From positions 1 through 31,038 of the IMG/VR virus record IMGVR_UViG_3300012936_002749: DNA of 31,038 nucleotides; one strand, written 5' to 3'. A program made the position numbers and the translations under genes. Origin of the DNA: a virus. Shown here piece after piece: positions 1 through 17,464 of this stretch; the stretch's first letter is position 1, and the number at the start of each line of letters is the position of its first letter. Below the pieces are notes generated by a model, which was not told where the DNA came from, did no database searches, and saw only the letters and a list, made by a program, of their open reading frames with translations.

Positions 1-528
1 ACTAATGTTGTAAATAGGTGCTTTCCAGTTTGCTATTTTCATATGTGCAACCATTTCTTCATTACTTGCTAATACGCCTGTAACAAACTCATTGCACATT
101 TCTTCATACAAACTCATCCACTTACCCATACCCCAAACGTGTACAAAGTCATCTGGATCTACTGCTTGAGCTAAACAACGTATCCAAACTTGCGGGCGTT
201 GTTCTGCTGGAATCTGATCCATAATGTAAGGCAACGATTCCATACCAGGCTGAAACATATCTTCAAAGAATACAACATCTTCGCCTGTTACTTCACCGTT
301 ACGCATCATTTGCACTAAGTTCATCATTTGCGACATTGCAAAGTAAGAACGGCCGTGTGCATCTAACACTTGGCCTACCTGGATTGCTTTTGTATTATCA
401 ATAGTTGTACCAGGCACACTTACCCAGTCAATGTTTCGGCGTTGAAATGCACGCCTACTCCATTCTTCTAACTGTAAAGTATACCTGCCTTCATAGGGCT
501 CTAATCCCATGTAAAACAGTTTACGCAT
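1..528 (-). CDS. Glycosyltransferase-like phage protein, C-terminus beyond window
   Basis: An open frame of 176 codons runs off the left edge, so the 3' end is missing. It begins MRKLFYMGLEPYEGRY and continues without a stop, with charged and aromatic segments such as VVFFEDMFQPGMESL and VHVWGMGKWMSLYEEM. Starting with a short hydrophobic strand followed by a Tyr/Glu-rich loop, then an FFEDMF-type acidic segment, resembles phage glycosyltransferase-like proteins that I recall from marine T4-like phages; this is recall, not a motif proof. The ATG overlaps the stop of the upstream gene (TAATG), so it is translationally coupled and is the distal visible gene of the clamp/DpdA operon. A sugar transferase would fit with the sugar-nucleotide genes at 4.9-7 kb. 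The reading frame is secure, the function is not. Confidence 0.6.
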   Translation of the reverse strand, partial: MRKLFYMGLEPYEGRYTLQLEEWSRRAFQRRNIDWVSVPGTTIDNTKAIQVGQVLDAHGRSYFAMSQMMNLVQMMRNGEVTGEDVVFFEDMFQPGMESLPYIMDQIPAEQRPQVWIRCLAQAVDPDDFVHVWGMGKWMSLYEEMCNEFVTGVLASNEEMVAHMKIANWKAPIYNIS

Positions 529-716
529 TAGCGTCTTCCTTTGTTGCGAGCTTTTGCTCTAAGCCAGTTTTTATATTTCTGGAAAGCCTGCCATGGTCGA
601 CGGTCGTTCCTATATAAATCGGCCTCGTTAAATGGATGACCTTCAGTCCTACAAAAGTCGTGGAACTCATCTAGGTCATTAAAAATTTTATTTACTACCG
701 GATTTTTGATAGTCAT
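528..716 (-). CDS. Small hypothetical protein, 62 aa
   Basis: This is a basic, soluble-looking 62-residue protein with no membrane segment. It has an acidic/aromatic middle (FNDLDEFHDFCRTEGHPF) and a very basic C-terminus (WLRAKARNKGRR). The start is ATG with AGG-containing sequence just upstream. Its stop shares a base with the ATG of the glycosyltransferase-like gene, so the two are coupled. The basic tail would suit nucleic-acid or protein binding, but I do not recognise the family. Confidence 0.6.
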   Translation of the reverse strand: MTIKNPVVNKIFNDLDEFHDFCRTEGHPFNEADLYRNDRRPWQAFQKYKNWLRAKARNKGRR

Positions 717-734
717 TTACCTGTATTCCTTTTC

Positions 735-1190
735 TTATGGGTAAACAATTTGACAGCCGTTTTCGCCATCTTCGGCGACATCAATAACAACAAACCGGCC
801 TGGATATTTGTTGTTGATCTCTGTGTACAAATCATCTGCAATCATTTCACATGACTTATGATTTAGTTCTATAACCTTATCATCATAAAGACTTTCTAAC
901 CAACGTTTAAACTGAATAAACTCAATGTCTCTATCATTATGTGTAACTTGTATTTGTACCTTGAAATGAAAAATGTGTCTATGTGCAACACCTAAAAAAC
1001 TTACATCGTCCCAGCCACCTGTTGCTAGTGCTGGATCGTCTTTTGCCGCTGGATATAAATGAATACCTTCTTTACGAAATGTTACCCAAATACTGCGTTT
1101 AGCATTTTCTAATCTATGTGTTAGACTCATTTTAGCATCTTCCTCTCTCATTCGACGTTTCATGTAAGCATAATAACGTTCTTGTTCCAT
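735..1190 (-). CDS. Possible QueD/PTPS-like T-fold protein
   Basis: This 151-residue protein has a layout like 6-carboxytetrahydropterin synthase (QueD): an HxH within a beta strand (AHRHIFHFKVQIQV), then an EF-x2-FKRWLESL segment where QueD has its DF-x2-LK helix, then LNHKSCEMIADDLYTEI where QueD has its Thr-Ala-Glu-Asn-like helix, and a final strand FVVIDVAEDGENGCQI. The canonical catalytic Cys-His-Asp set is not clearly complete, so it may be divergent or inactive. QueD makes the preQ0 precursor used by DpdA-type enzymes, and a DpdA-like gene lies 0.9 kb upstream in the same operon, which supports the reading. The ORF is secure. The assignment is tentative. Confidence 0.5.
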   Translation of the reverse strand: MEQERYYAYMKRRMREEDAKMSLTHRLENAKRSIWVTFRKEGIHLYPAAKDDPALATGGWDDVSFLGVAHRHIFHFKVQIQVTHNDRDIEFIQFKRWLESLYDDKVIELNHKSCEMIADDLYTEINNKYPGRFVVIDVAEDGENGCQIVYP

Positions 1191-1194
1191 TTTG

Positions 1195-1722
1195 TCAACT
1201 TATTATTGTATCTGTAGTGTATTTAGACCAATCTGTAAAGACAGCCTTCTCTTTTAAATCATGCATTCTATGTACCCATACACCTGGATTAGTTGCATCA
1301 AAATCTTTGTCGTCAATCTTAAGACATGCATTGTATCCTAGTTGACTTATGTATGGCATTTTAACACTTATCATTGGTATAAAACGATTGTGTTCGGTGG
1401 CGCCACTTTCAAGTAAGCCTTCTATTTGCGAAACATCTATATCTAATGTTACCCAATATCCTTCACTTAACAAAGGAAGTATCATATCTTCCCAAGGCTT
1501 CCATTCTGTTAATGTGTTACTTGTAACATCAAAACTCATATTGGCACCGCAGTATATATGTTTACAACCATGCTTATCTGCTATACCCATTATTTCTTCT
1601 AAGTCTTTTACTCCGACTACAAATAATGTTTTTTTACCAAACTGGGGAGTATGTTCAACTTCAGTACCGATAAAATATTGAGCATCCTCAATATCGGTTC
1701 CTTGATCATATATTCTTTTCAT
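1195..1722 (-). CDS. Conserved-looking phage protein of unknown function, 175 aa
   Basis: A soluble 175-residue protein with alternating strands and helices: a TLFVVGVKDLEEIMGIADKH stretch, then HIYCGANMSFD, a GYWVTLDIDVSQIEGLLESG stretch, and ISVKMPYI. The alternating beta/alpha pattern would fit a barrel or Rossmann-like fold. I looked for the CxxxCxxC of QueE radical SAM enzymes and it is absent. The start is ATG with a weak AGG upstream. It sits between the possible QueD-like gene and the small coiled-coil genes in the DpdA operon, so a role in nucleobase modification is possible but only from context. Confidence 0.6.
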   Translation of the reverse strand: MKRIYDQGTDIEDAQYFIGTEVEHTPQFGKKTLFVVGVKDLEEIMGIADKHGCKHIYCGANMSFDVTSNTLTEWKPWEDMILPLLSEGYWVTLDIDVSQIEGLLESGATEHNRFIPMISVKMPYISQLGYNACLKIDDKDFDATNPGVWVHRMHDLKEKAVFTDWSKYTTDTIIS

Positions 1723-1891
1723 TTGTTTTTACCTGATATATTTCATTCCATACGTTCCAACGTTTTTTTATATATTCGTTGAGTTGTTCTTTATTATAGT
1801 TGTTTTTCTTCATATTGTCAATGATTTTATCAAGGTCTTCAAGTGCCATTTCTAAATTTAGCAGTTGGATTTCTTTAGGCCCCATGTCCAT
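1706..1891 (-). CDS. Small acidic helical protein, 61 aa
   Basis: Predicted mostly helical, with heptad-like spacing in LLNLEMALEDLDKIIDNMKK and a lysine-rich end. It has an AGGAG Shine-Dalgarno about 8 bases before the ATG, located inside the end of the upstream 75-aa gene; the two frames overlap by 17 bases. The 3' end overlaps the 175-aa gene by 17 bases. Together with its upstream neighbour this is a pair of small coiled-coil genes. No family was recognised. Confidence 0.6.
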   Translation of the reverse strand: MDMGPKEIQLLNLEMALEDLDKIIDNMKKNNYNKEQLNEYIKKRWNVWNEIYQVKTNEKNI

Positions 1892-2102
1892 TTGTGTATG
1901 CTCCTAGGGATTGAAGTTTTCGTTTTACTCTATATATTTCGTCTTTAACCCAAAGTTTTTCAGTTTTTAATCTTCTAACTTCTTCTGTTATATTCATGTT
2001 TTGGAATCTTTTTTCTATATCTTGGTCTAAGTTTCGATGTTTTGCAACTAATTGCTCTAAATGTGCCTTAAGTTTATCAGTTTCATTTTCGTAGTTGCTC
2101 AT
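1875..2102 (-). CDS. Small coiled-coil protein, 75 aa
   Basis: Highly charged and helical throughout (DKLKAHLEQLVAKHRNLDQD, then a similar RLKTEKLWVKDEIYRVKRKL stretch), as expected of a coiled coil. A strong Shine-Dalgarno (AAGGAGAG) lies before the ATG, which immediately follows the stop of the DpdA-like gene. It is therefore co-translated with that gene. Function unknown. It could be an oligomerisation partner in the operon, but nothing in the sequence proves that. Confidence 0.6.
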   Translation of the reverse strand: MSNYENETDKLKAHLEQLVAKHRNLDQDIEKRFQNMNITEEVRRLKTEKLWVKDEIYRVKRKLQSLGAYTNGHGA

Positions 2103-3560
2103 CTAACTCTCCTTGAATAGTTCACCAAACTTAGTACTAGCATTAACTGTTTTTTTGCCTACGTTTAATCTTGTACCAATAACTTGCATCCAAAACTTTG
2201 TGTATTTGTCAATCATGTCTAAACTTTTTTGTCTATCTTGTAAACTAAAGATTTCATCAACAACTTGTTTAAACTCTATACGTTCAAAGCGTTCGTCAAT
2301 CAACATATAAGGATATTCTCCTGTGTCATAACGTTCGTTAGCTCGTTGTGTACTTTCGATGTGCATCCATACATTATGACCCATTTGTAATGCATAGCTA
2401 AATGAGTCCCAACTTGTTTTACCTTCTTTGCCGATTTTATTCAAATCGCCTGGTTTGTAATAGCAAATATCACTTACTTTACATTCCTTACTAATAGGAG
2501 AGTCTTCAAATGCTTCTAATATATTATCGTTTACTACTGCATCACTGTATAGTCTATTATCAGTAGAATACTTTTTATCATCTGCACTCGGAGACATCAT
2601 ATAACTCCACTTGCCTCTATCATCAATACGTATTGTGTGATATACTTGTCCATTTGCAGTCGCTAAAAAAGGCGATGCACAATCATATGTAATCATAAAG
2701 TATGGATTGTGATACTTACGCACTGCACGTTGAATGTCTGTAAGCAATACAGCCCATTCTAGTTTACTAGTGCCTAAGAAGTGCATTACGTCATGCACAC
2801 CTGGTTCAAGTAGTCCGTCATGTATTTGATGTACAAGCCTCCTTAGAATCAAGTGTACATCGCACATGTTTTGTCCTCCCATAGCCCAGCCGTTAAAGTG
2901 TGTACTAGGATATTTAGCAGGATCACAATAATGTTTAAACTCTTCATACCAGTTATCAGCATCAGCATGATTACTACCTTGTAGAACATTTAAAACTTTA
3001 AAGTTACCACGTCTATTTGCCATATAGTATTTTGCATTGATATGAGTTGCGTCAACTGCGTCTTGATAGCTATGAATATTTGCCGCTTTTGCCGCTTTAG
3101 GATCTTGGAATGTCCATGTTGGAATATCTAACATCATTCCATAGTCCATATATTCTTCCATCCAGTTTACTACAAGTTCACGTTTTTTGAGTGCTTTTGG
3201 ACAGTTTGGATCAGTCCAATCGCCCTCCCACAAGCCTTTAGCAATCTGGAATCCACCTGAGTCACCAAGCAACCAACTATTTTCTCTATCACGGTTGCGA
3301 CACATATCTTCTTTTTCTACATGCTTATTAATATCTAAATCAGCATGACCTGCACTGTATAATGCCCATTTATAATGAAACTTACCTTTGTCAGGGTTTA
3401 GAAAGTTTAGACCTTCTACTTCACCTAATCCAGGAGGAACTCTATTATAATCTACGTATTCACCAAAACGTTGTTTGCCTATAAAAGTTGCATAAAAGCC
3501 ACTTATACTTGGTAAAAATACTGCATAGTCATTTTGCGTTTCAGTTAAGTTTACTTTCAT
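2103..3560 (-). CDS. DpdA-like 7-deazaguanine transglycosylase (TGT superfamily)
   Basis: The product (485 aa) carries hallmark TGT motifs: GDSGGFQIAKG with Asp100 (the DSGGFQ loop), a GWAMGGQ loop at about 224-231 where bacterial Tgt has its GGLAVGE loop, and YDCASP with Asp293 in the position of the FDCVMPTR catalytic nucleophile. A later Cys-x6-Cys (KECKVSDICYY) and His may stand in for the zinc site, but the usual CxCxxC is absent. In the family, TGT swaps guanine in tRNA. DpdA paralogues swap guanine in DNA for preQ0 or derivatives, protecting phage DNA from restriction. Long size and phage context favour DpdA over tRNA Tgt. I chose the ATG at 3560 because it forms an ATGA overlap with the upstream stop and has GGAAG eight bases before it; an in-frame ATG at 3575 has no Shine-Dalgarno. 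Confidence 0.82.
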   Translation of the reverse strand: MKVNLTETQNDYAVFLPSISGFYATFIGKQRFGEYVDYNRVPPGLGEVEGLNFLNPDKGKFHYKWALYSAGHADLDINKHVEKEDMCRNRDRENSWLLGDSGGFQIAKGLWEGDWTDPNCPKALKKRELVVNWMEEYMDYGMMLDIPTWTFQDPKAAKAANIHSYQDAVDATHINAKYYMANRRGNFKVLNVLQGSNHADADNWYEEFKHYCDPAKYPSTHFNGWAMGGQNMCDVHLILRRLVHQIHDGLLEPGVHDVMHFLGTSKLEWAVLLTDIQRAVRKYHNPYFMITYDCASPFLATANGQVYHTIRIDDRGKWSYMMSPSADDKKYSTDNRLYSDAVVNDNILEAFEDSPISKECKVSDICYYKPGDLNKIGKEGKTSWDSFSYALQMGHNVWMHIESTQRANERYDTGEYPYMLIDERFERIEFKQVVDEIFSLQDRQKSLDMIDKYTKFWMQVIGTRLNVGKKTVNASTKFGELFKES

Positions 3561-3769
3561 TGAAACTTCTTCCATGTTTCATGCAACACATAAAACCAAA
3601 CACCGTTGATTAAAGGTTCTACTATTGCATCTATTGTAGCAAGTTCTAAACTTGCTCCTGTTATAACCATAACACATACAATAGCTATTAGCATATGTCC
3701 GATTGTGTATACAATGGCTAGTGTAATACTACTTCCACCTAGTATCCATGCAACTAAATCATTTAGCAT
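3557..3769 (-). CDS. DUF2061-type small membrane protein
   Basis: A 70-residue protein with two hydrophobic segments (about 5-40) and the C-terminal pattern EPLINGVWFYVLHETWKKF. That pattern resembles DUF2061 (predicted membrane protein), where an E-x-xxN-x-xxY-x-HE-x-xW motif recurs. It overlaps the PsiE-like gene upstream by 11 bases and ends in an ATGA overlap with the DpdA-like gene. Inner-membrane location is expected. The biochemical role of DUF2061 is unknown to me. Two consecutive small membrane-protein genes between the clamp and dpdA is an unusual arrangement. Confidence 0.7.
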   Translation of the reverse strand: MLNDLVAWILGGSSITLAIVYTIGHMLIAIVCVMVITGASLELATIDAIVEPLINGVWFYVLHETWKKFQ

Positions 3770-4169
3770 CTCTTATAGCTTTCTTTTCTAAACTCAGTTT
3801 TTCTTTAGCACTCATTAAATATGCCGCACCCGCTAACACAGCAATAGCACCTGCTTCGGCTACTAATGTTAAAGGTTCACCGTCTTTGCTATGCAGAATA
3901 ATTAATCTACATAATGCTGTCATAGCAATAATAATCGGAAGTGTAACTGGTATTCTATTGCTTATAAAATAGGCACCTACCATGCCTACAATCTCTGTGT
4001 AAATGAACAACAAAAATAAATCAGCAAGTTCGATTGTACGAGCAATCCACATATCATAAACATCACAACCTGCGGCTAATACTGTTAATCCACCTATAGT
4101 TGCTAACATACCTTTTTCTGTTAAGGTTGTTGTCCAATGTAAACGTGCGTTTATTTTCTTCTCCGCCAT
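3759..4169 (-). CDS. psiE: PsiE-like phosphate-starvation-inducible membrane protein
   Basis: This 136-residue protein has about four membrane segments. Its core (LFLLFIYTEIVGMVGAYF followed by NRIPVTLPIIIAMTALCRLI and ILHSKD) closely matches the PsiE family pattern of a membrane helix ending in a basic residue, then RIPV, an I-x-I-TAL-R helix and a I-L-x-SK motif. PsiE genes in bacteria belong to the phosphate-starvation response; the molecular function is not established. I placed the start at the ATG at 4169, one base after the clamp stop. The frame is open further upstream, but that extension would overlap the clamp gene. The genome also carries phoH, another gene often grouped with Pho. 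Confidence 0.75.
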   Translation of the reverse strand: MAEKKINARLHWTTTLTEKGMLATIGGLTVLAAGCDVYDMWIARTIELADLFLLFIYTEIVGMVGAYFISNRIPVTLPIIIAMTALCRLIILHSKDGEPLTLVAEAGAIAVLAGAAYLMSAKEKLSLEKKAIRDAK

Positions 4170-4170
4170 T

Positions 4171-4899
4171 TTACTTTTGTTGTGCCGGAAGAATGTAATC
4201 ATACTTTGCCATACCACTATCTACACTAATCATCATAGCACCTTGATCAGTAATACTCATTTTTTTGTCGCCGTCTAAGTTTAAAATAGCAATAGTTTGT
4301 GCAACTGGCCACGCCCATGTATGTGTTAATGTGCCTTCGATATCATGTGCAAAAGTAAATGAACCTGCGTGTGTTGCTTCGTCACCAAAGTAAAAGTTTA
4401 ACATATTGTTTTCTGTTTTTACTTGAAACACAGTTTCTTCTGCATGAGCACCAGACATAAGTTTCATACGTGCAATACTAGCCATACTTGGCTGAAGTTC
4501 TACGTCCCAACCTTTACCTTGAAATGTAACGCTTTTTAGTTTTTCTTCAATGATTGCTTTATTCATAAAGCGATAATCATTTTCAAAGTCACCTGTTTTG
4601 TTTTCAAAGTGAATATGAGTTGGCATAACTTCTCCGTTGCGTTCTTCTTGTACAACTTCGATTTTTGCATTTTCTTTATATTCTGGATTTTTCAAGTGAT
4701 AACTTAACTTGCCTAAATCTGGCATACCAAATATACCTGTAAACTCTCCTACTGGAGAATGTGTTGTGGCGCTCATAATAACACTTCGATCATCTGCCAT
4801 ACTTTCGATCTTAGTATCTGCTTCTGCATTTACTTTTAGTGTTGTAATAAAGCCAAGCGAATGTGTATGGCTTACTATATCTTGTAGAATATCTTGCAT
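4171..4899 (-). CDS. DNA polymerase sliding clamp (T4 gp45-like)
   Basis: At 242 aa it is near T4 gp45 size (228 aa). It contains the GEFTGIFGMPDLGKLSYHL stretch typical of the gp45 N-terminal domain and ends YDYILPAQQK, a typical C-terminal clamp strand. The trimeric ring tethers the gp43 polymerase and, in T4, activates late transcription with gp33/gp55. A strong Shine-Dalgarno (AGGAGA) precedes the ATG, and a consensus sigma70-type promoter lies 20-48 bases upstream. It is the first gene of a leftward operon continuing into psiE, DUF2061 and the DpdA-like gene. The clamp loader is not in this window. Confidence 0.82.
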   Translation of the reverse strand: MQDILQDIVSHTHSLGFITTLKVNAEADTKIESMADDRSVIMSATTHSPVGEFTGIFGMPDLGKLSYHLKNPEYKENAKIEVVQEERNGEVMPTHIHFENKTGDFENDYRFMNKAIIEEKLKSVTFQGKGWDVELQPSMASIARMKLMSGAHAEETVFQVKTENNMLNFYFGDEATHAGSFTFAHDIEGTLTHTWAWPVAQTIAILNLDGDKKMSITDQGAMMISVDSGMAKYDYILPAQQK

Positions 4900-4918
4900 A
4901 TTTGTCTCCTATTGTACC

Positions 4919-4947
4919 ATTATAATGCCTAAGTGCGGTTTTGTCAA
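4919..4947 (-). promoter_or_regulatory. Consensus sigma70-type promoter for the clamp/dpdA operon
   Basis: On the minus strand, TTGACA (4942-4947), exactly 17 bases, then TATAAT (4919-4924) is a perfect match to the bacterial housekeeping promoter. The ATG of the clamp follows about 20 bases later. The -35 box lies over the last codons of the dehydrogenase gene. The match predicts transcription by unmodified host RNA polymerase early in infection. Confidence 0.85.
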
Positions 4948-5693
4948 TATCTTTTTAACGTACTGTTATAATCCATTGCGGCTTGCAATGTATTTAGATT
5001 AATATTTTTTTCTTTTGCCATTTTTGTTAAGGCTTTTGTATCTTTTGGAAAACACATACCACCCCAACCTCTAAATCCTTCATCAGGATAAACTAATGTG
5101 TGACTTTCTCCTATACGATGATCAGAAGCTACTCCTGCTCTAGCATCATCAAAGCTAATGTTATATTTTTCACAAAAGTCATACATCTCATTAAAGAAAC
5201 TAAGTTTTGTTGCTAGGAAAGCATTTCTAAAATATTTTATTACAATCGCTTCTTCAGGTGGTACAATATATTGTTTTACTTTTGGCCATTGTACTGCATA
5301 TTGATCACGCCAGTAATCAGTATCACCACTTAATATAACAGAAGAAATATTTTTAACATCATTCATATAGTTTGCGGCTCGCAAAAATTCTGGACTAAAA
5401 CATAGTTTATGATTAGGAAACTTATCTTTTAGTTCTTTCCAGCCTTGTAAACTTATTGTGCTTTTGATCATTATTGGAGTAGTTTCTGCACACTGTTGTA
5501 CTACATCAATGACTGCTGACATATCACAACTATTGTCATCTGCTTCTGGAGTTGATACGCAGACTATAACTGCATTTGCATTTGTAAAATCTGCGTATTT
5601 GTTTTTTGGAGGATCGTGGATTATAATATCACGCCAGTCTTTAAAAAGAAGTTCATAGGCTTTTCCTACAAATCCATATCCTGCTATAATCAT
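4944..5693 (-). CDS. Short UDP-glucose/GDP-mannose dehydrogenase
   Basis: The enzyme family oxidises a nucleotide sugar C6 alcohol to a uronic acid using two NAD+. Visible motifs are the NAD-binding GYGFVGKA (5-12), CVSTP (45-49), KSTI (77-80), SPEFLR (100-105, Glu102), the helix VIKYFRNAFLATKLSFFNEM with Lys153 and Asn157, and GGMCFPKD with catalytic Cys214. The protein stops at 249 residues, shortly after the dimerisation helix. Typical members are about 400-450 residues, so the C-terminal nucleotide-sugar-binding domain is missing. It begins with an ATGA overlap with the phosphomannomutase gene, which hints that a mannose-derived nucleotide could be the substrate. Activity without the C-terminal domain is uncertain. 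Confidence 0.8.
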   Translation of the reverse strand: MIIAGYGFVGKAYELLFKDWRDIIIHDPPKNKYADFTNANAVIVCVSTPEADDNSCDMSAVIDVVQQCAETTPIMIKSTISLQGWKELKDKFPNHKLCFSPEFLRAANYMNDVKNISSVILSGDTDYWRDQYAVQWPKVKQYIVPPEEAIVIKYFRNAFLATKLSFFNEMYDFCEKYNISFDDARAGVASDHRIGESHTLVYPDEGFRGWGGMCFPKDTKALTKMAKEKNINLNTLQAAMDYNSTLKRY

Positions 5694-6400
5694 GCGGCCA
5701 ACTTGCTTTCTTGGAAATATTGTAATGTTTCAAATGTGTGTCTCCAATCACGCACTTGATGTGTTTTTCTTATAAGTTTTGCTAATGGTTCATCATTGCC
5801 GCCTGGTAGTGTTTTATCACCAAAGAAATATAAGTTATCTTCAGTCTTAAAATCAGATAGTATTTGTGATTTATCCCAACCTACAGGATATATATCTATG
5901 CCTGTATCGCCACCTATTTTTGCCATTATTGTATCACCAAACATCATATTAAACTGTAATGCAATGCTTTCACGTTCACGATTATTTGTATCGTGTTCTA
6001 CATACATTTTTCTTTCACCTATTGTTGCATTACGTCCTACAACACTAAAGTTTACAGCACCTGGCCGTTCCTCAATATGATTACCTGTGCGTAAAGGAAA
6101 AGAACTTACCTCTAACCAACTTTGTAAAAGTGTTCTACATTCATTTGGTAACTTCCAGTTTTTACTTCTTATGTTTTTTCCATATGACCAAACATCATTA
6201 CCCGAACAGTTATATACTGCTTTTACTCTTTCAACAATATCTTCACCTAGTTGTTCAACTGTTTTAGCATAATCGCTACCAGTAACTAGATAAACGTCAT
6301 TGTATTTTATAAAATCAAGAAAATATTTTTCAAACGTAGAATCTATTCTTGATCTACTAGGAGTAAGTGTTCCGTCTACATCAAATATAAACTTATTCAC
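5690..6400 (-). CDS. PMM2-type phosphomannomutase (HAD superfamily)
   Basis: The N-terminus FDVDGTLTPSRSRID carries the HAD nucleophile Asp7 and acid/base Asp9. Further signatures of the eukaryotic-type phosphomannomutase (PMM1/PMM2) family are RPGAVNFSVVGRNA, IGGDTGIDIYPVGWDKSQIL and YFFGDKTLPGGNDEPL, which line up with the human PMM2 signature for cap-domain sugar binding and Mg2+ binding. It interconverts mannose-6-P and mannose-1-P. Length (236 aa) is close to the family's 246. The start is GTG, backed by a strong GGAGG four to eight bases upstream, and the last codons overlap the dehydrogenase start. Bacteria normally use the unrelated ManB/AlgC type, so this is an unusual form. Confidence 0.85.
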   Translation of the reverse strand: MNKFIFDVDGTLTPSRSRIDSTFEKYFLDFIKYNDVYLVTGSDYAKTVEQLGEDIVERVKAVYNCSGNDVWSYGKNIRSKNWKLPNECRTLLQSWLEVSSFPLRTGNHIEERPGAVNFSVVGRNATIGERKMYVEHDTNNRERESIALQFNMMFGDTIMAKIGGDTGIDIYPVGWDKSQILSDFKTEDNLYFFGDKTLPGGNDEPLAKLIRKTHQVRDWRHTFETLQYFQESKLAA

Positions 6401-6635
6401 AAAAGTTCCTCCAAAATTTACAGTTTGCTAACTTAGCACCTTCTGTAGGAACAGTGCATACACGTTCATGTCTTGCATTTTCCCAACAGTCACCTGTTAC
6501 GCCACGCATTTGTGCAAACTTTGCGAAGCCATTATCTATACTCAAAATAATGATACCTGGCAAAACCAGCATAAACAATACAATATTAATAAAAGCTATA
6601 CCAAAGCCTTCATTATGATATGGTTGATTACTCAT
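6393..6635 (-). CDS. Small single-pass membrane protein with cysteines, 80 aa
   Basis: One hydrophobic helix at about 12-33 (FGIAFINIVLFMLVLPGIII), then a soluble tail with four cysteines (DCWENARHERVCT, CKFWRNFCE). The cysteines could form disulfides if the tail is periplasmic. It lies between the cytidylyltransferase (overlap 8 bases) and phosphomannomutase (overlap 8 bases) genes, so it is probably part of the same sugar-related group. No family was recognised. Confidence 0.6.
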   Translation of the reverse strand: MSNQPYHNEGFGIAFINIVLFMLVLPGIIILSIDNGFAKFAQMRGVTGDCWENARHERVCTVPTEGAKLANCKFWRNFCE

Positions 6636-7038
6636 TTATACATACCCTTTTTCTAAGATCACTAGTACTAAACCTGTGATCACGTTTGTTAAAATATAAG
6701 TCTATTTCACGTTTACGACAAATGTCTTTACCCGTAAAATCTTTGTCTCTGTACTCTTCTCCTAGTATTCTAACATTTATATGATACATTGTCAAGATAT
6801 CTTCTAAATCTTTTTCGGTGCCATACGGAATAATTTCATCAACATACTTTACACCTTTAAGTTGTGTATAACGCTCTACAATGGTTTGCACTGGAGCATT
6901 TTTTTCTTCTCTATCTACACTTGGATCCATTTGTAAAGCACATATTAGATAATCGCATTGCTCTTTTGCTTCACGTAACATTTGTACGTGTCCTGCATGT
7001 AATAGATCAAATGTTGAACAAGTAAATCCTACTCTCAA
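6628..7038 (-). CDS. Glycerol-3-phosphate cytidylyltransferase-like nucleotidyltransferase
   Basis: The 136-residue sequence has the cytidylyltransferase signatures HAGH (14-17, the HxGH motif), a late RFSTSDLRKR segment equivalent to R-x-x-STS/T, and the LGEEYRDKDFTGK loop. The family activates a small phosphorylated alcohol (glycerol-3-P, or ethanolamine-P) or a sugar with CTP; size matches TagD-type proteins. The start codon is TTG (7036-7038), supported by GAGGTGG about five bases upstream and a short overlap with the CHCC gene stop. With the phosphomannomutase and dehydrogenase it forms a set for making activated sugars or polyols, possibly for a phage glycan or DNA/virion glycosylation. 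The exact substrate cannot be decided from sequence. Confidence 0.78.
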   Translation of the reverse strand: MRVGFTCSTFDLLHAGHVQMLREAKEQCDYLICALQMDPSVDREEKNAPVQTIVERYTQLKGVKYVDEIIPYGTEKDLEDILTMYHINVRILGEEYRDKDFTGKDICRKREIDLYFNKRDHRFSTSDLRKRVCINE

Positions 7039-7331
7039 AAGTCCACCTCTCTTCCTTTATGTTCCCAAGTTCCATATCTTGTTGGCTCTGGCCCTGTTGG
7101 TCCGCCGTGTTCTACTTCTTGTTTTTGCGCCTTATTATTGAATTGATCTGGATCAATGATTGGTTCTGGTTCTTTTAATCTAAATATTATATCACAATAT
7201 CCACAAACTGCTTCTCCACCTTCTGGTATTGTGTAATATACTAATGGATGATCAAAGTTTTCGCCTGAACATTTTACTCTTGGAGTTTCGGAATAAATTA
7301 TAACTTTTTTATATCCTTCTACTCTTTCCAC
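7035..7331 (-). CDS. CHCC zinc-finger protein (NDUFS6-like)
   Basis: A 98-residue protein whose N-terminal half contains Cys21, His28, Cys43 and Cys46 (VKCSGENFDHPLVYY then AVCGYC), spaced C-x6-H-x14-C-x2-C. That is the zf-CHCC fold seen in the mitochondrial complex I subunit NDUFS6 and small alphaproteobacterial homologues. The C-terminal half is polar with Pro/Glu and looks disordered. I favour a GTG start at 7331, one base after the polymerase stop, with GGGG just upstream. A TTG at 7346 is also in frame but has no Shine-Dalgarno. A host-derived origin is plausible; the function in the phage is unknown. Confidence 0.7.
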   Translation of the reverse strand: MERVEGYKKVIIYSETPRVKCSGENFDHPLVYYTIPEGGEAVCGYCDIIFRLKEPEPIIDPDQFNNKAQKQEVEHGGPTGPEPTRYGTWEHKGREVDF

Positions 7332-7332
7332 A

Positions 7333-9996
7333 TTAACCCCATTCAAATAAGTTGTTAAACGTTGTTTTTTGTTTTGTACTTTCTAAATCATATTTCAACA
7401 CACCAATCAAGTTGTCTAGTTTGTTGTCAATAATAACTTCTTCCATTGCATCACCGTCAAATGGCAGTTCTTTAAACCAATCTGGTATACGTAGTTCATC
7501 TGTTGGATACGCAACACTTGTATAGCCTAACGGATTCTGTTTTAGTTTACACACAATAACTTTCATACCGTCTACAATCTCTTGCGAATACTTGTCACCA
7601 TTCATACGTTTCAATGTATTCCAGTTAATACTTGCTCTTACGTGTCCGGGCATGTTTGCTTTGCCTTGCTTTTCTTCAAGACGTTGATAATGTCCAATCT
7701 TGTTTGCACGTTTAGGTGAACCTTTTTCAAATCCTGGACGTTCTTTAAACTCACGCCTAAATGCACTAATGCTTTCTAATAGCTCTTGTTCAGGTTTCAA
7801 CTGTAATACCATATCAAGTAAAGTTTTCAAAAAGTCTTGCATGAATACAGGAGTATCAGAACGTTTCAAGTCCAAGCCCATTGCTTTTACTTTACCTAGT
7901 TTCCCATCAGTATCTGTTCTAAAGCCTTCCAAATCATATACATTAACTGCATAACGTTTTTTTGTAATGTATAAGCCTGTGTCTGCAACAACTTCTCTAG
8001 CCGCCGCAATAACATCGCTACGTTGCTTAGGACAATGAAATGCATCCATCATAAATGCAGGAAATGTTGTATTTGCTTGTTCACATATTTGATCATATAG
8101 GGTAATAACATTATCTTTACCCCAAGGTATAGCACCTGCATCTATCTCAGGTTTGAGTATAGGATACGCACTAAAATAGACACTATCAGTGTCACCATAA
8201 ATAATTCCTCTGCCGACATGATCATATTCTCCTGTGATTATTTTGTTCACTTCGGCACTCATGTGCTTTGCAATCTGTCTACCAGTTAGTGTTGTACTTT
8301 GTCCAATACGTTTATCAAAGAATCTACAACCTGGATTAAGAATAGCACCATACAAACTGTTTAAGTTAATCTTTTTAACAAGCTGTCTTTTATCCCAAAA
8401 AACAATCTCAGCTTCGTTTTCTGCATCTTTTGCTTTCTTTAACATTTTTTGTAGATCTTTACGTTCTGCATACCAACGCTTTAGTAAGCCCGGAACAACA
8501 CCTTCTATCTCCCAAGTAAATATAGTTCCATTTGCACTTAACATCCATGGTTGATTACTATCAAAAATAAGTTTGTATATTTCTGCACCACTTAGTACAT
8601 GACTAGTACCATCTTCTAAATCTAATGTTAAACTAACATCTTTACGTTGCTCCATTACTGCTTCATATTCTAAACTACCAAACTTACCTTCCCAAGCGGC
8701 CGCAAATGACTTCTTTTCTAATGTTGTAGCATTGTGCAACATTTCGTCTGTCATGTCAGGACGTAACTGTCCTATAATAGTTTCTGGAGCCATATTCATT
8801 GCACGAATCACACTTGGATATAGACTGTTTAAGTCCATTGATCCTATCCATTCATGCACACCTTTTTTAGGATACGCAACATAAGCACCTGCCGCGGCTG
8901 TACCACCTTCGTGTTCTTTTCTATTAGGCGATTGCATGCCACGTCTATGTGCTTCATTAATAATAGCTTGTTCTGTAACTGCAACTGCACCCATTGTTGT
9001 TTGCAGTAGCACAGTATTGTCATGTGCGATTTCATTTGCAAGATCAATAAAACGTAGTTTCTTATCTAGTTTATCAAGTAATGCAACGTCTTGTCTATTG
9101 TATTCAATAAACTTTTTAAAGTCGTTGTTGTAAAGTTGATCAAGTGTACCTTCATACACAGTCTTATTTTCACCAACTTCCATTTCACCAATAGCATCTA
9201 GTCTGTATGTGTGGCGTTCTTCATATGTATACTTACGATACAGTTCAAGATAATCCATATGCACACGACCAATAGTATCAAACGTTTCAGCAGTTTTGCC
9301 ATACTTTTCAAACTCTCTGCGTTTGGGCAACTGCTTCCATAAACAAAAGCGTCTTGTGTCATCTTTGCTTAACACACGTGAAACACGATTTACAGTATAC
9401 GGAATATCATAACCTTCACTGTTCCAACCACTGATAATATCTGCATCTTCTATAATATCAAGAAATGCTTGTAGCATATCGCCTTCTTTTTCATACAAAT
9501 ATGTGTTATCAAAATCTGCACATTCTTCTTTTGCCTGTTCCATAGTTAGTGTCTTAGGTGGCAATGCAAAAGTTACAAGTGCATCAAGCCATTGTAAATG
9601 CACAGTAATAGCAGTAATGGGCATAAAAGGATCACTAGGATCAGCAAAACCACGCTCTGGATCAAAGTCTGTCTCAATGTCAAAAAATGCAACATTTAGT
9701 TTAGGAGCATCTTGATTAAGATAATGTTCACTCAAGCATTGAAATATTGGATTTACATCACTTTCAAACATTTTCTTGCCTTTGTTTATAGCAAGTTCTT
9801 TGCGAAAGTCTTTTGTATTTTTGCATACAATACGTGTTAACGGATCGCCAAATATACTTTTGTACTTGCCTTTTGCATCTTCATAATAAAATGTATATTT
9901 TGCTTGGTATTCTTGATAATGCCTTTTGCCATCTTTACGTTCAACGGCACGTATTATGTCTTGATCACGATCAAAAAATGCATCTACATATGGCAT
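7333..9996 (-). CDS. Family B DNA polymerase (T4 gp43-like)
   Basis: The 887-residue length matches T4 gp43 (898). The 3'-5' exonuclease begins with FFDIETD (Asp106, Glu108). Later blocks include GWNSEGYDIPY (ExoII), a Tyr-x3-Asp exonuclease motif near RQDVALLDKL, MDLNSLYPSVIRAMNM (motif A), KKINLNSLYGAI (motif B) and YGDTDSVYFS (motif C with both catalytic aspartates). All catalytic motifs appear intact. It ends at 7333 and begins at an ATG that overlaps the dsbA-like stop (TAATG). The clamp is encoded 2.4 kb away. This is the replicative polymerase. Confidence 0.96.
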   Translation of the reverse strand: MPYVDAFFDRDQDIIRAVERKDGKRHYQEYQAKYTFYYEDAKGKYKSIFGDPLTRIVCKNTKDFRKELAINKGKKMFESDVNPIFQCLSEHYLNQDAPKLNVAFFDIETDFDPERGFADPSDPFMPITAITVHLQWLDALVTFALPPKTLTMEQAKEECADFDNTYLYEKEGDMLQAFLDIIEDADIISGWNSEGYDIPYTVNRVSRVLSKDDTRRFCLWKQLPKRREFEKYGKTAETFDTIGRVHMDYLELYRKYTYEERHTYRLDAIGEMEVGENKTVYEGTLDQLYNNDFKKFIEYNRQDVALLDKLDKKLRFIDLANEIAHDNTVLLQTTMGAVAVTEQAIINEAHRRGMQSPNRKEHEGGTAAAGAYVAYPKKGVHEWIGSMDLNSLYPSVIRAMNMAPETIIGQLRPDMTDEMLHNATTLEKKSFAAAWEGKFGSLEYEAVMEQRKDVSLTLDLEDGTSHVLSGAEIYKLIFDSNQPWMLSANGTIFTWEIEGVVPGLLKRWYAERKDLQKMLKKAKDAENEAEIVFWDKRQLVKKINLNSLYGAILNPGCRFFDKRIGQSTTLTGRQIAKHMSAEVNKIITGEYDHVGRGIIYGDTDSVYFSAYPILKPEIDAGAIPWGKDNVITLYDQICEQANTTFPAFMMDAFHCPKQRSDVIAAAREVVADTGLYITKKRYAVNVYDLEGFRTDTDGKLGKVKAMGLDLKRSDTPVFMQDFLKTLLDMVLQLKPEQELLESISAFRREFKERPGFEKGSPKRANKIGHYQRLEEKQGKANMPGHVRASINWNTLKRMNGDKYSQEIVDGMKVIVCKLKQNPLGYTSVAYPTDELRIPDWFKELPFDGDAMEEVIIDNKLDNLIGVLKYDLESTKQKTTFNNLFEWG

Positions 9997-10262
9997 TAAA
10001 CGTCCTTGTCATATCCTGTTGTTGCAACAATAGTTTCTAAATCTTCAAACTCATCATGTACACGGCTCCAGTCACGTTTTTGTGCTACTCTGATTGCTTT
10101 GTTTATCAGTGCAGGCTTTACATTTAGCTCTTCAGCTACTGCTTTTATAGTTTCTTTTAAACTACCTTGTAGATCCTCGATTTCTTGTAAGACAGTCACA
10201 CCTTCTTTTACTAGACGTTCTAGTTTGGCCTTTTCTTCTTGGCCATACACTCTATCGCTCAT
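9996..10262 (-). CDS. dsbA: DsbA-like double-stranded DNA-binding protein
   Basis: An 88-residue helical protein with a stretch EIEDLQGSLKETIKAVAEEL followed by NVKPALINKAIRVA and an aromatic/charged tail. Length and layout fit T4 DsbA (89 aa), a small dsDNA-binding protein linked in T4 to late promoters; this is from recall. It sits upstream of the polymerase and its stop overlaps the polymerase start (TAATG). The Shine-Dalgarno is AAAGGAG, and a sigma70-type promoter is directly upstream, so it is probably an early or middle gene. A pairing helix-turn-helix (ELNVKPALINKAIRVA) is credible. Confidence 0.6.
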   Translation of the reverse strand: MSDRVYGQEEKAKLERLVKEGVTVLQEIEDLQGSLKETIKAVAEELNVKPALINKAIRVAQKRDWSRVHDEFEDLETIVATTGYDKDV

Positions 10263-10288
10263 GCAATACTCCTTTAATGATTATTCTT

Positions 10289-15754: not shown

Positions 15755-15935
15755 CTTTAGAGCGTTGCCTGTTCTTCTTCTTAGAGTTTCCGCCTAGTAA
15801 ACTAGCATCACTGTCTAATGCATTTTTGGCTGTTCCATCACTATTTTTTTGTTGTCTAGAAATCATACCGCCAACTGGAGTTGCTACTGTTGCAACTGCT
15901 GATGCAGTGGTTTCACACAATTCTCTAATCTTCAT
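15747..15935 (-). CDS. Small protein with capsid-targeting-like N-terminus, 62 aa
   Basis: It starts MKIRELCETTASAVATV, a short amphipathic MK-x3-L-x-E pattern like the capsid-targeting leader of T4 internal proteins, which the prohead protease cuts after Glu. The C-terminus is Ser/Asn/Lys-rich and basic (GGNSKKKNRQRSKDK), suitable for packing against DNA. The gene overlaps the 59-aa gene by 11 bases upstream. A small, basic, cleaved internal head protein is a good hypothesis, not proven. Confidence 0.55.
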   Translation of the reverse strand: MKIRELCETTASAVATVATPVGGMISRQQKNSDGTAKNALDSDASLLGGNSKKKNRQRSKDK

Positions 15936-16104
15936 AACCTATCTCCCGTTTTTTGGCCCATACTTCCCAATATTCCATTCGTTCATTAGTACTTAGCCGT
16001 TTTTCCTCATGTTCTTTGCATTTTTTAATATAATGCTTCATTTCGTGTTTTCGCCACTCTATACTATATCCATCAGGGTATAGCTCCGCTATTGTTTTGC
16101 CCAC
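15925..16104 (-). CDS. Small GTG-started protein, 59 aa
   Basis: Read directly from the minus strand: a GTG at 16102-16104 preceded by GGAGGG nine bases upstream, an in-frame TAA two codons before it, and 59 residues to a TAG that overlaps the next ATG. The protein is charged and helical (LYPDGYSIEWRKHEMKHYIK, then a KKCKEHEEKRLSTNERMEYW stretch). The in-frame upstream stop, strong Shine-Dalgarno, and 11-base overlap with the downstream gene are typical of a real gene here. It fills the only gap in this block. Function unknown. Confidence 0.72.
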   Translation of the reverse strand: MGKTIAELYPDGYSIEWRKHEMKHYIKKCKEHEEKRLSTNERMEYWEVWAKKREIGYED

Positions 16105-16130
16105 TTTTTATTTCCCTCCACAAGTTCATA

Positions 16131-16610
16131 TTATGTCCAAGGTCTGCCTGTGACAAGCCCACCTGAGTTTGGATTGTCTACCAGTGTATTAGTATCGTTA
16201 TTACCTGCGGTGTACATTGTAGGCAAGTCTGTTTTAGTTTTTGTATTATTTGCTCTGTAATATGTTGCACCGGTATCTGCGGCCGCAAGTCCTTTGCGTT
16301 TGCTTACAGCAATTCTTAGTTTTTCTTCTTGTCTTTGTCTTTTGTAACCGTTTGATCCTGAGTATCTAGGTATGCAATAAACTCTATCACCGTCAACCAA
16401 ACCTGCGGCTGTTAGTGTGTCACTTCCATGATCTGTTTGATTTATAGTTTTATCTTTTTGTGCTATTATTTCTGCATACATAGCAGTTATTATCTCTTGG
16501 CCTTCTACAGCCTGTGCTAATGCAGTCAAACCATTCATAGTTGTTGATCCCATTGTAACTGTTAAATCAAATTCTACTCCAGTTAATCCTTTACATCTAA
16601 TAGTTGCCAT
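16131..16610 (-). CDS. Protein with ubiquitin-like (beta-grasp) N-terminus, 159 aa
   Basis: Residues 1-85 resemble ubiquitin in layout: ATIRCKGLTGVEFDLTV fits a first beta hairpin (ubiquitin has a K-x-LTG-x4-L-x-V pattern), then a helix (about 24-40), a strand AEIIAQKDKT, and SDTLTAAGLVDGDRVYCIPR (61-97 region) where ubiquitin has its TL-x3-I-x3-S-x-L-x-LV-x-R strand. The segment ends PRYSGSNG where ubiquitin ends RLRGG. A lysine-rich then Asn/Gly-rich tail of about 60 residues follows (NNDTNTLVDNPNSGGLVT), so no free Gly-Gly end. The ATG overlaps the stop of the HAD gene by one base. It lies among likely virion genes. The fold assignment is by eye only. Confidence 0.5.
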   Translation of the reverse strand: MATIRCKGLTGVEFDLTVTMGSTTMNGLTALAQAVEGQEIITAMYAEIIAQKDKTINQTDHGSDTLTAAGLVDGDRVYCIPRYSGSNGYKRQRQEEKLRIAVSKRKGLAAADTGATYYRANNTKTKTDLPTMYTAGNNDTNTLVDNPNSGGLVTGRPWT

Positions 16611-17464
16611 TACGCTACCCTCATTTCTGTATCTATTGCTTGTTTGATTGCACTTGCTGTTCTTTCAAACTTGTGGTCTTTATACTTAAAACCAATTCCT
16701 CCGGCATTTTCCCAGGCATTAATGTTAACACCATAATCGTCAATTAATATATTAGATGTTCCGTCATCGTTTTTAGCAAACTTTTGTTTGTTGTGTGTAA
16801 TAAAAACATCTTTTGGTGGAAAAAATGATAGATTCTTTTTTATCCATTCACGCTTATGTGGTTCTGATCTTGGATCATCAGCAAGCGGAGAACTACAAAT
16901 ATAATATTCGCCTTTGACTTTTTGTATTAGACTCAATAATTGTTTTGCTTGAGGCAACAATGGAAGTTTTAACCAAAACTCGTCGGTGTCTCTTATTTTT
17001 TGTAATGCATCTTTTATATCATGTTCTTTATCTATTTTAGTAAAATGATCTACTTGCATTAGTTTTGCCCATTCGCCAAAGAAATCTGCAAGCACACCAT
17101 CCATATCAACATATATTTTTGTATTAGGTGATAAATCTCCAAGTGCTTCACGTAAATCAACAGCCATCATTTCTTGCATAATACTGCTAACTTTAGGCTG
17201 TTTAATCTCAAAAGAATGTCCACCTTCTAATAATGCTTGTTCGTATGCTGTAAACTTTTGTTTTTCTGCAAGCCCTAAATTAAACAGTACATTAGTACTG
17301 TTGCCTTTAACTTTTTTTGATAATGTAGGTGGACGCCCGTCCTTGTCTACTTTGAAACCAAACTTAGCCGCTTCAATGCTAGTTTGATTAACGCCAACAT
17401 CTGGAGTAGTATTAACACCTTTTACAATACGTCCTACACCTTCATCTAAATGTTCAATCTTCAA
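16610..17464 (-). CDS. HAD phosphatase (deoxyribonucleotidase-like) with extra N-terminal domain
   Basis: Residues 116-280 form a HAD phosphatase: IYVDMDGVLADFFGEW (Asp120 nucleophile, Asp122), an ICSSPLADDPRSEPHKREWI stretch (Ser of motif II), and NILIDDYGVNINAW (motif IV acids). The closest group I recognise is the 5'(3')-deoxyribonucleotidase/NT5C type. Residues 1-110 are extra: MKIEHLDEGVGRIVK, then a VDKDGRPPTL and FNLGL segment of unknown role, with a capsid-targeting-like start. The start is TTG, backed by a strong GGGGAG eight bases before it. A nucleotidase fused to a possible virion-targeting leader could act in the head or on the nucleotide pool; both are inference. Confidence 0.75.
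   Translation of the reverse strand: MKIEHLDEGVGRIVKGVNTTPDVGVNQTSIEAAKFGFKVDKDGRPPTLSKKVKGNSTNVLFNLGLAEKQKFTAYEQALLEGGHSFEIKQPKVSSIMQEMMAVDLREALGDLSPNTKIYVDMDGVLADFFGEWAKLMQVDHFTKIDKEHDIKDALQKIRDTDEFWLKLPLLPQAKQLLSLIQKVKGEYYICSSPLADDPRSEPHKREWIKKNLSFFPPKDVFITHNKQKFAKNDDGTSNILIDDYGVNINAWENAGGIGFKYKDHKFERTASAIKQAIDTEMRVA

Follow-up and report, generated by a model that had tools for sequence, protein, structure and literature searches.

A divergent DpdA cassette with a linked glycosyltransferase as a candidate route to sugar-bearing 7-deazaguanine in phage DNA

Phage DNA that contains deazaguanines is already known, as are variants of the transglycosylase DpdA, and DpdL is likewise already known. 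The DNA of Cellulophaga phage phiST reportedly carries unsubstituted 7-deazaguanine, and Cui et al. are said to have predicted the decarboxylase DpdL there in 2023. To our knowledge, all known phage 7-deazaguanine derivatives carry a small C7 group, and we know of no report of a sugar-bearing 7-deazaguanine DNA base. The present analysis concerns IMG/VR virus record IMGVR_UViG_3300012936_002749, a linear record of 31,038 bp with 36% G+C that was analysed whole (hereafter the window) and is a fragment of a marine bacteria-infecting virus. Its minus strand encodes a divergent DpdA, a protein of 175 amino acids (aa; p175), a DpdL-like protein and the beginning of a glycosyltransferase. The window is best explained as the upstream half of a phage 7-deazaguanine operon, and the gene set, completed from relatives, would on balance make up a full system for modifying DNA with 7-deazaguanine, sugar addition included.

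It has been reported that the DNA of Vibrio phage nt-1 carries deazaguanines and that this phage has a DpdA2 system (Hutinet et al. 2019, PMC6884629). Like the window family, the nt-1 system has a transglycosylase with the tRNA-guanine transglycosylase (TGT) fold but without a Pfam TGT match, accompanied by folE, queD and queE, and it protects phage DNA; unlike the window family, it has QueC and an amidotransferase and makes bases of the preQ0/G+ type. In the window family, no full-length QueC was seen, a QueD-derived, DpdL-like protein stands in for that branch, and there is a glycosyltransferase in addition. Phage phiST shares with the window a homolog of the 151-aa DpdL-like protein with the same invariant residues, in a queD-queE-folE cluster, and has no QueC, but it lacks the glycosyltransferase, p175 and the DpdA subfamily of the window. 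A deazaguanine system in Pseudomonas phage PA5oct was noted by Iyer et al. 2021 (PMC7824862). The jumbo phages PA5oct, Paride and MIJ3 have the same DpdA subfamily as the window (34% identity), p175 (50%) and a glycosyltransferase gene adjacent to a DpdL-like gene, together with FolE, two QueD, QueE and no QueC, whereas their genes are scattered over three loci. No mention of a glycosyltransferase or sugar step for the PA5oct-group system was found in the papers searched. In T4-like glycosylated DNA (glucosyl-hydroxymethylcytosine, arabinosyl-hydroxycytosine), a base is modified and a phage glycosyltransferase fed by sugar nucleotides then acts on it, as in the model proposed here; the model would differ in its acceptor, a deazapurine brought in by base exchange instead of a hydroxylated cytosine.

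An original prediction had proposed, at this locus, a DpdA-like transglycosylase with a possible QueD-like partner and an unrecognised 175-aa protein. The three open reading frames (ORFs) concerned are confirmed on the minus strand and are given below with the glycosyltransferase at the contig end, which the prediction had overlooked together with the sugar-nucleotide genes.

2103..3575, minus strand: divergent DpdA, candidate DNA-guanine transglycosylase, 490 aa (TGT fold, motifs, profile match to the DpdA2 type)
1195..1722, minus strand: p175, 175 aa, candidate enzyme or DpdA partner (AlphaFold2 model; a short way downstream of DpdA, on its strand, in 68/68 loci)
735..1190, minus strand: QueD-derived T-fold protein, DpdL-like, 151 aa (homology to PA5oct gp166 and a phiST ORF, zinc histidines, hhalign)
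1..528, minus strand: GT4-like glycosyltransferase, N-terminal 176 aa, cut by the contig end (homology to relative L007 and ACP17 gp124, GT4 profiles)

The transglycosylase carries both of the motifs noted for it, DSGGFQ and YDCASP, and the aspartates in them, D105 and D298, do not vary among 40 diverse virus homologs that were aligned and also used as AlphaFold2 input. D150 and Q199-G200 are likewise invariant and align with E. coli Tgt, as do the motifs DSGGFQ, MxLD (MMLD, with the base-contact Asp), LQGS, GWAMGG, HFLG and YDCASP. The CxCxxC zinc motif, already noted as missing, is lacking in 40/40 homologs, where one Cys and an HN motif form a remnant of the site. The probable true start is the second Met, at position 3560, where relatives begin (485 aa in L007), and it was sensible that the prediction had ended the gene there. 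The AlphaFold2 model is confident (predicted local distance difference test, pLDDT, 89), and ranks 1–9 of a Foldseek search against the PDB are all tRNA TGT or archaeosine TGT (arcTGT) structures, with a best E of 2.5e-6 and probability 1.00. A structure siding with tRNA Tgt had been named as a point that would count against DpdA; the best PDB matches are indeed Tgt and arcTGT, but the comparison is not decisive, with no DpdA among the 50 PDB matches listed.

Meanwhile, no model of Pfam, PHROG, NCBIfam or PADLOC recognises the protein; the Pfam TGT model PF01702 is absent from 24/24 phage records and present in 14/14 control genomes, and its sequence sets it well apart from tRNA Tgt. In hhalign, the profile of the window family alone was uninformative against phage 9g DpdA and X1 owing to its low diversity, and with this profile no match to 9g DpdA1 was detectable. 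A joint profile that included PA5oct, Phosso, Vibrio 2.275.O and GR7B resolved the DpdA2 type, matching the profile of the ACP17, X1 and BUCT-ZZ01 enzymes with E 1.7e-8. The ACP17 enzyme is 36% identical to nt-1 DpdA2 over 59% and is the best bridge to nt-1, to which the window DpdA is related by profile comparison only. Since the DpdA2-type proteins of ACP17, X1 and BUCT-ZZ01 also lack CxCxxC, a missing zinc motif does not speak against DpdA. The DpdA-like identity originally proposed agrees with the fold, the invariant aspartates, the absence of a PF01702 match and the DpdA2-type profile match, and the ORF is classified as a divergent DpdA without a numbered subfamily. It very probably inserts 7-deazaguanine into DNA. 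In Vibrio phage 2.275.O (L166:9917-17000), the same subfamily stands beside QueF, a YhhQ-type transporter, a full QueC and FolE, and this context suggests that the subfamily probably inserts different bases in different phages.

The 151-aa protein was rightly regarded as QueD-like, but its active site is new. It is 52% identical to PA5oct gp166 and 28% identical (E 1e-10) to an ORF in the queD-queE-folE cluster of phiST, which we take to be the published DpdL and which has the same invariant residues. The three zinc histidines of QueD (H44, H70, H72) are invariant in 36 sequences, as are a new motif, S113-C114-E115, and E140, whereas the catalytic Cys and the Asp-His pair of QueD have no counterpart in a column comparison with this family. 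The PTPS model PF01242 does not match the window protein, while hhalign aligns the family with phage QueD over the C-terminal half (88%, E 3e-6). Because true QueD genes coexist with the DpdL-like gene in PA5oct, ACP17, phiST and others, the 151-aa protein is not the QueD of the pathway. The family is DpdL-like in sequence, and activity on 7-carboxy-7-deazaguanine is proposed for it, at a point after QueE and not before it.

In the window, tblastn found no match for folE, queE, queD or queC. The original prediction had noted that folE, queE and queC were not visible, and this stands but carries little weight, since the whole record is only a 31,038-bp linear fragment. Relatives extend past the contig end. 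The 136,876-bp virus contig L007 is collinear with window positions 1–10274 at 73–82% nucleotide identity; past this region it carries the complete glycosyltransferase as well as a GalE-like epimerase, a xanthine/guanine-type phosphoribosyltransferase, FolE and QueE. Linkage was surveyed in 74 distinct contigs, with the denominator for each gene being the contigs with enough flank. The DpdA/p175 pair lies on one strand in 68/68 contigs, so the pairing is not due to chance. DpdL-like (54/54), glycosyltransferase (43/43), GalE-like (32/39) and UDP-sugar dehydrogenase (45/68) genes lie on the same strand, as do FolE (28/32), phosphoribosyltransferase (24/37) and QueE (16/25), and larger records contain FolE in 23/24 and QueD in 14/21 cases. 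A full-length QueC was found only in Vibrio 2.275.O. In five other records, matches to the QueC model were short, partial and weak (16–25 bits, PP-loop), with the X1 match below the cut-off; these were judged, though not proven, to be other ATP-pyrophosphatases.

The earlier suggestion of deazaguanine in DNA made from imported preQ0 can therefore be kept in part: deazaguanine is likely, but import is not the natural model, because relatives have folE and queE, and some of them queD too, without full-length queC. A YhhQ-type transporter, moreover, occurs in just 2/37 loci. The same gene content argues for 7-carboxy-7-deazaguanine as the source of the base, and a route that bypasses preQ0 is quite likely. 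Several features of the synthesis genes were observed in addition. The xanthine/guanine-type phosphoribosyltransferase recurs in the cassette (L007:14042-14566, L013:19114-19632, L167:10093-10554) and could salvage released guanine. In L007 QueE (15835-16728), the third radical-SAM Cys is displaced by a long insertion, with C31 and C35 (CX3C) followed, after about 49 residues, by C85-DTYA. In the PA5oct record (L177:8450-9725), FolE and one QueD are marked as detected by mass spectrometry.

The glycosyltransferase ORF shares 98% identity with the first 176 residues of the complete 387-aa L007 protein and matches ACP17 gp124 (blastp E 2e-9). A PDB profile search with the family retrieved GT4-type enzymes (best E 0.0018), and all matches with E < 0.5 were glycosyltransferases or sugar synthases; the Pfam Glycos_transf_1 match is weak (E 1e-3 to 2.5e-4, below the curated cut-off), and at the level of sequence a GT4-type assignment is weakly indicated but consistent. 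When the glycosyltransferase was used as the sole query, 80 virus loci were retrieved, 77 of them distinct, and 7-deazaguanine genes were present within the fetched stretch in 77/77, with DpdL in 75, DpdA in 72, FolE in 64 and QueC in none; GalE-like matches occurred in 75, although the GalE model may also match other sugar epimerases. Conversely, the survey from the DpdA/p175 side recovered the glycosyltransferase in every locus with enough flank. A tblastn search of 50,697 annotated phage records with two divergent members found only the PA5oct group, Phosso, ACP17, X1, BUCT-ZZ01 and, weakly, PhiXhv/Ep032, and every phage with a match also carries a DpdA. No PA5oct-type glycosyltransferase was found in IMG/VR by a scan with single-sequence patterns. 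The gene occurs together with either of two DpdA subfamilies: the divergent one (PA5oct, Phosso, window family) or the DpdA2 type (ACP17, X1, BUCT-ZZ01); as the BUCT-ZZ01 copy is 70% identical and stands beside a DpdA2-type enzyme, one glycosyltransferase gene has joined both. In this Synechococcus phage (L167:12010-16167), the DpdA2-type and DpdL-like genes lie between two distinct GT4-like glycosyltransferases, and a disaccharide is possible. Hydroxymethyl-pyrimidine was considered as the sugar acceptor and rejected as unlikely: a thymidylate-synthase-family gene, and with it any known hydroxymethylase, is absent from ACP17, X1 and BUCT-ZZ01, and such a gene is missing from 12/17 records overall.

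The 175-aa protein stays unrecognised, as originally described. Its AlphaFold2 model is confident (pLDDT 89), the PDB holds no match (best E 0.05), and the only match in BFVD is the ACP17 homolog. Homologs turned up in the metagenomic family, the PA5oct group and ACP17 and nowhere else. The protein may act as a partner of DpdA or prepare the acceptor for the sugar. The idea of a shortened QueE was rejected, with neither fold nor sequence support (best QueE-like viral match E 0.14) and a separate QueE in existence. In PA5oct (L003:3227-4995), p175 adjoins alcohol-dehydrogenase-like and oxidoreductase-like genes, a possible hint at its chemistry.

Upstream of and between these genes, the minus strand holds further features, as follows.

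7333..9996, minus strand: family B DNA polymerase, upstream context (tblastn: Phosso is the nearest annotated phage, 50% identity over 99%; linked in 58/58 loci)
6628..7038, minus strand: cytidylyl/adenylyltransferase-like protein, candidate sugar-nucleotide supply (PF01467 E 2.6e-14; linked in 41/66 loci)
5690..6400, minus strand: eukaryote-type phosphomannomutase (HAD-IIB), candidate sugar-phosphate supply (PF03332 E 4.4e-29; linked in 40/67 loci)
4944..5693, minus strand: short UDP-glucose/GDP-mannose dehydrogenase, candidate sugar-nucleotide supply (PF00984 E 2.5e-24; linked in 45/68 loci)
4171..4899, minus strand: sliding clamp that anchors the upstream side of the cassette (32% identity to the annotated Phosso clamp, E 8e-40; linkage 68/68)
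1875..2102, minus strand: 75-aa DUF465-like protein (PF04325 E 4.5e-8, above the cut-off; recurs downstream of DpdA in close relatives)
1706..1891, minus strand: 61-aa ORF (recurs between DpdA and p175 in close relatives)
528..716, minus strand: 62-aa ORF (recurs in relatives between the DpdL-like and glycosyltransferase genes)

The minus-strand order is thus DNA polymerase, nucleotidyltransferase, phosphomannomutase-like protein, UDP-sugar dehydrogenase, sliding clamp, two small membrane proteins and DpdA, followed by the DUF465-like protein, the 61-aa ORF, p175, the DpdL-like protein, the 62-aa ORF and the end-truncated glycosyltransferase. The operon placement with the clamp, part of the original prediction, is borne out, with dpdA just downstream of the clamp and separated from it by the two small membrane-protein ORFs. 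One membrane protein between clamp and dpdA belongs to the PsiE family (3759-4217, minus strand; Pfam E 2.2e-18) and is linked in just 3/74 relatives. The run of sugar-nucleotide-type genes (4944-7038) lies directly upstream of the clamp; its dehydrogenase is without the usual C-terminal domain and matches the NDP-sugDHase model with E 2.7e-40, below the cut-off of that model. PADLOC gave no match.

On these grounds, a pathway of four steps can be proposed. FolE, QueD (from phage or host) and QueE, which relatives encode shortly beyond the point where the window stops, would convert GTP to 7-carboxy-7-deazaguanine. With no QueC, preQ0 would not be formed, and the DpdL-like protein would process the carboxy base, most likely by decarboxylation to 7-deazaguanine. 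The divergent DpdA, encoded near the clamp, would then use D105 and D298 to swap 7-deazaguanine for guanine in phage DNA, and the freed guanine may be salvaged by the phosphoribosyltransferase encoded in the cassette of relatives. Finally, the dedicated GT4-like glycosyltransferase would add a sugar made by the GalE-like, UDP-sugar dehydrogenase and phosphomannomutase-like enzymes; a sugar on the deazaguanine base is somewhat favoured. Such a sugar would protect the DNA against restriction and perhaps also against the removal of modified guanine by defence glycosylases. What the analysis shows is gene content, folds, conserved residues and linkage; each of these chemical steps is inferred, above all the fourth and the point of sugar attachment.

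Several observations weigh against this pathway. Its main weakness is that unsubstituted 7-deazaguanine offers C7 or N2 only, with no obvious hydroxyl or amino side arm; without a sugar handle on the base, the product would have to be a C-glycoside or an N2-glycoside, or else DpdL or p175 would perform a step other than simple decarboxylation. The phages phiST, RHph_I1_18, Bakedbeans, Ahp1 and D479 have DpdL without the glycosyltransferase, which is therefore not essential to the base pathway. The window holds just the first 176 aa of the glycosyltransferase, only some of the loci have linked sugar-nucleotide genes, and p175, for which no fold could be recognised, does not occur in X1, BUCT-ZZ01 or Phosso. 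The PhiXhv/Ep032 homolog of the glycosyltransferase is weak (24%) and lies far from dpdA, near amino-sugar genes; in Xanthomonas phage PhiXhv-12 (L175:6735-9969), this distant homolog stands in an amino-sugar gene cluster.

The DpdL phages that lack the glycosyltransferase also fit plain 7-deazaguanine DNA (such as dDG or dCDG) made by DpdA, in which case the glycosyltransferase would have a different target, such as host surface polysaccharide or some other base. Polysaccharides are the usual targets of GT4 enzymes, and the expected dDG base lacks an obvious sugar acceptor, but this explanation is considered unlikely in view of the linkage found with the glycosyltransferase as an independent query (77/77) and in reverse (43/43), its confinement to DpdA phages in 50,697 genomes, its position between dpdL and the base-synthesis genes and its pairing with two DpdA subfamilies. 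If the transglycosylase instead modified phage or host tRNA, the cassette would be a tRNA modification pathway; the closest folds in the PDB belong to tRNA and archaeosine TGTs, and sugar-bearing queuosines do occur in tRNA. The missing Pfam TGT match and lost zinc motif, the position of dpdA by the replicative clamp, as in the DNA-modifying phage 9g, and the profile-level homology to the DpdA2 type found in nt-1, a phage with deazaguanines in its DNA, make this very improbable.

The order of the last two steps might also be reversed, with the sugar first put on the free base or nucleotide and the finished hypermodified base then inserted by DpdA. Gene order does not fix step order, but TGT base pockets prefer small C7 groups, and this order is considered improbable. 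DpdA2-type enzymes appear promiscuous for the base (PMC6884629), which would permit it, whereas T4 DNA glucosyltransferases work post-replication, according to PMC13216743. Finally, FolE and QueD belong to pterin pathways too, and the genes could be decaying or serve folate or pterin metabolism instead of DNA modification; the invariance of catalytic residues across 40 divergent DpdA sequences and the synteny kept over 70+ distinct contigs leave this next to no probability.

The same gene set occurs in cultured Pseudomonas, Acidovorax and Synechococcus phages. There is about an even chance that a widespread aquatic T4-related phage lineage, together with PA5oct, Paride and ACP17, carries sugar-decorated 7-deazaguanine, a glycosylated purine formed by base exchange and then glycosylation of a base derived from carboxy-7-deazaguanine, possibly with a C-glycosidic bond or via a handle supplied by p175. 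Neither a glycosylated deazaguanine nor a link between glycosyltransferase and DpdA was found in the abstracts and passages searched, which do not include the two most relevant publications; priority is not established. Defence glycosylases that remove modified guanines are mentioned in PMC13216743, and the proposed modification, if true, would explain escape from these as well as from restriction enzymes. It would also add sugar-bearing deazapurines to the natural DNA bases and provide a second, unrelated route to sugar-coated phage DNA, parallel to glucosyl-hydroxymethylcytosine.

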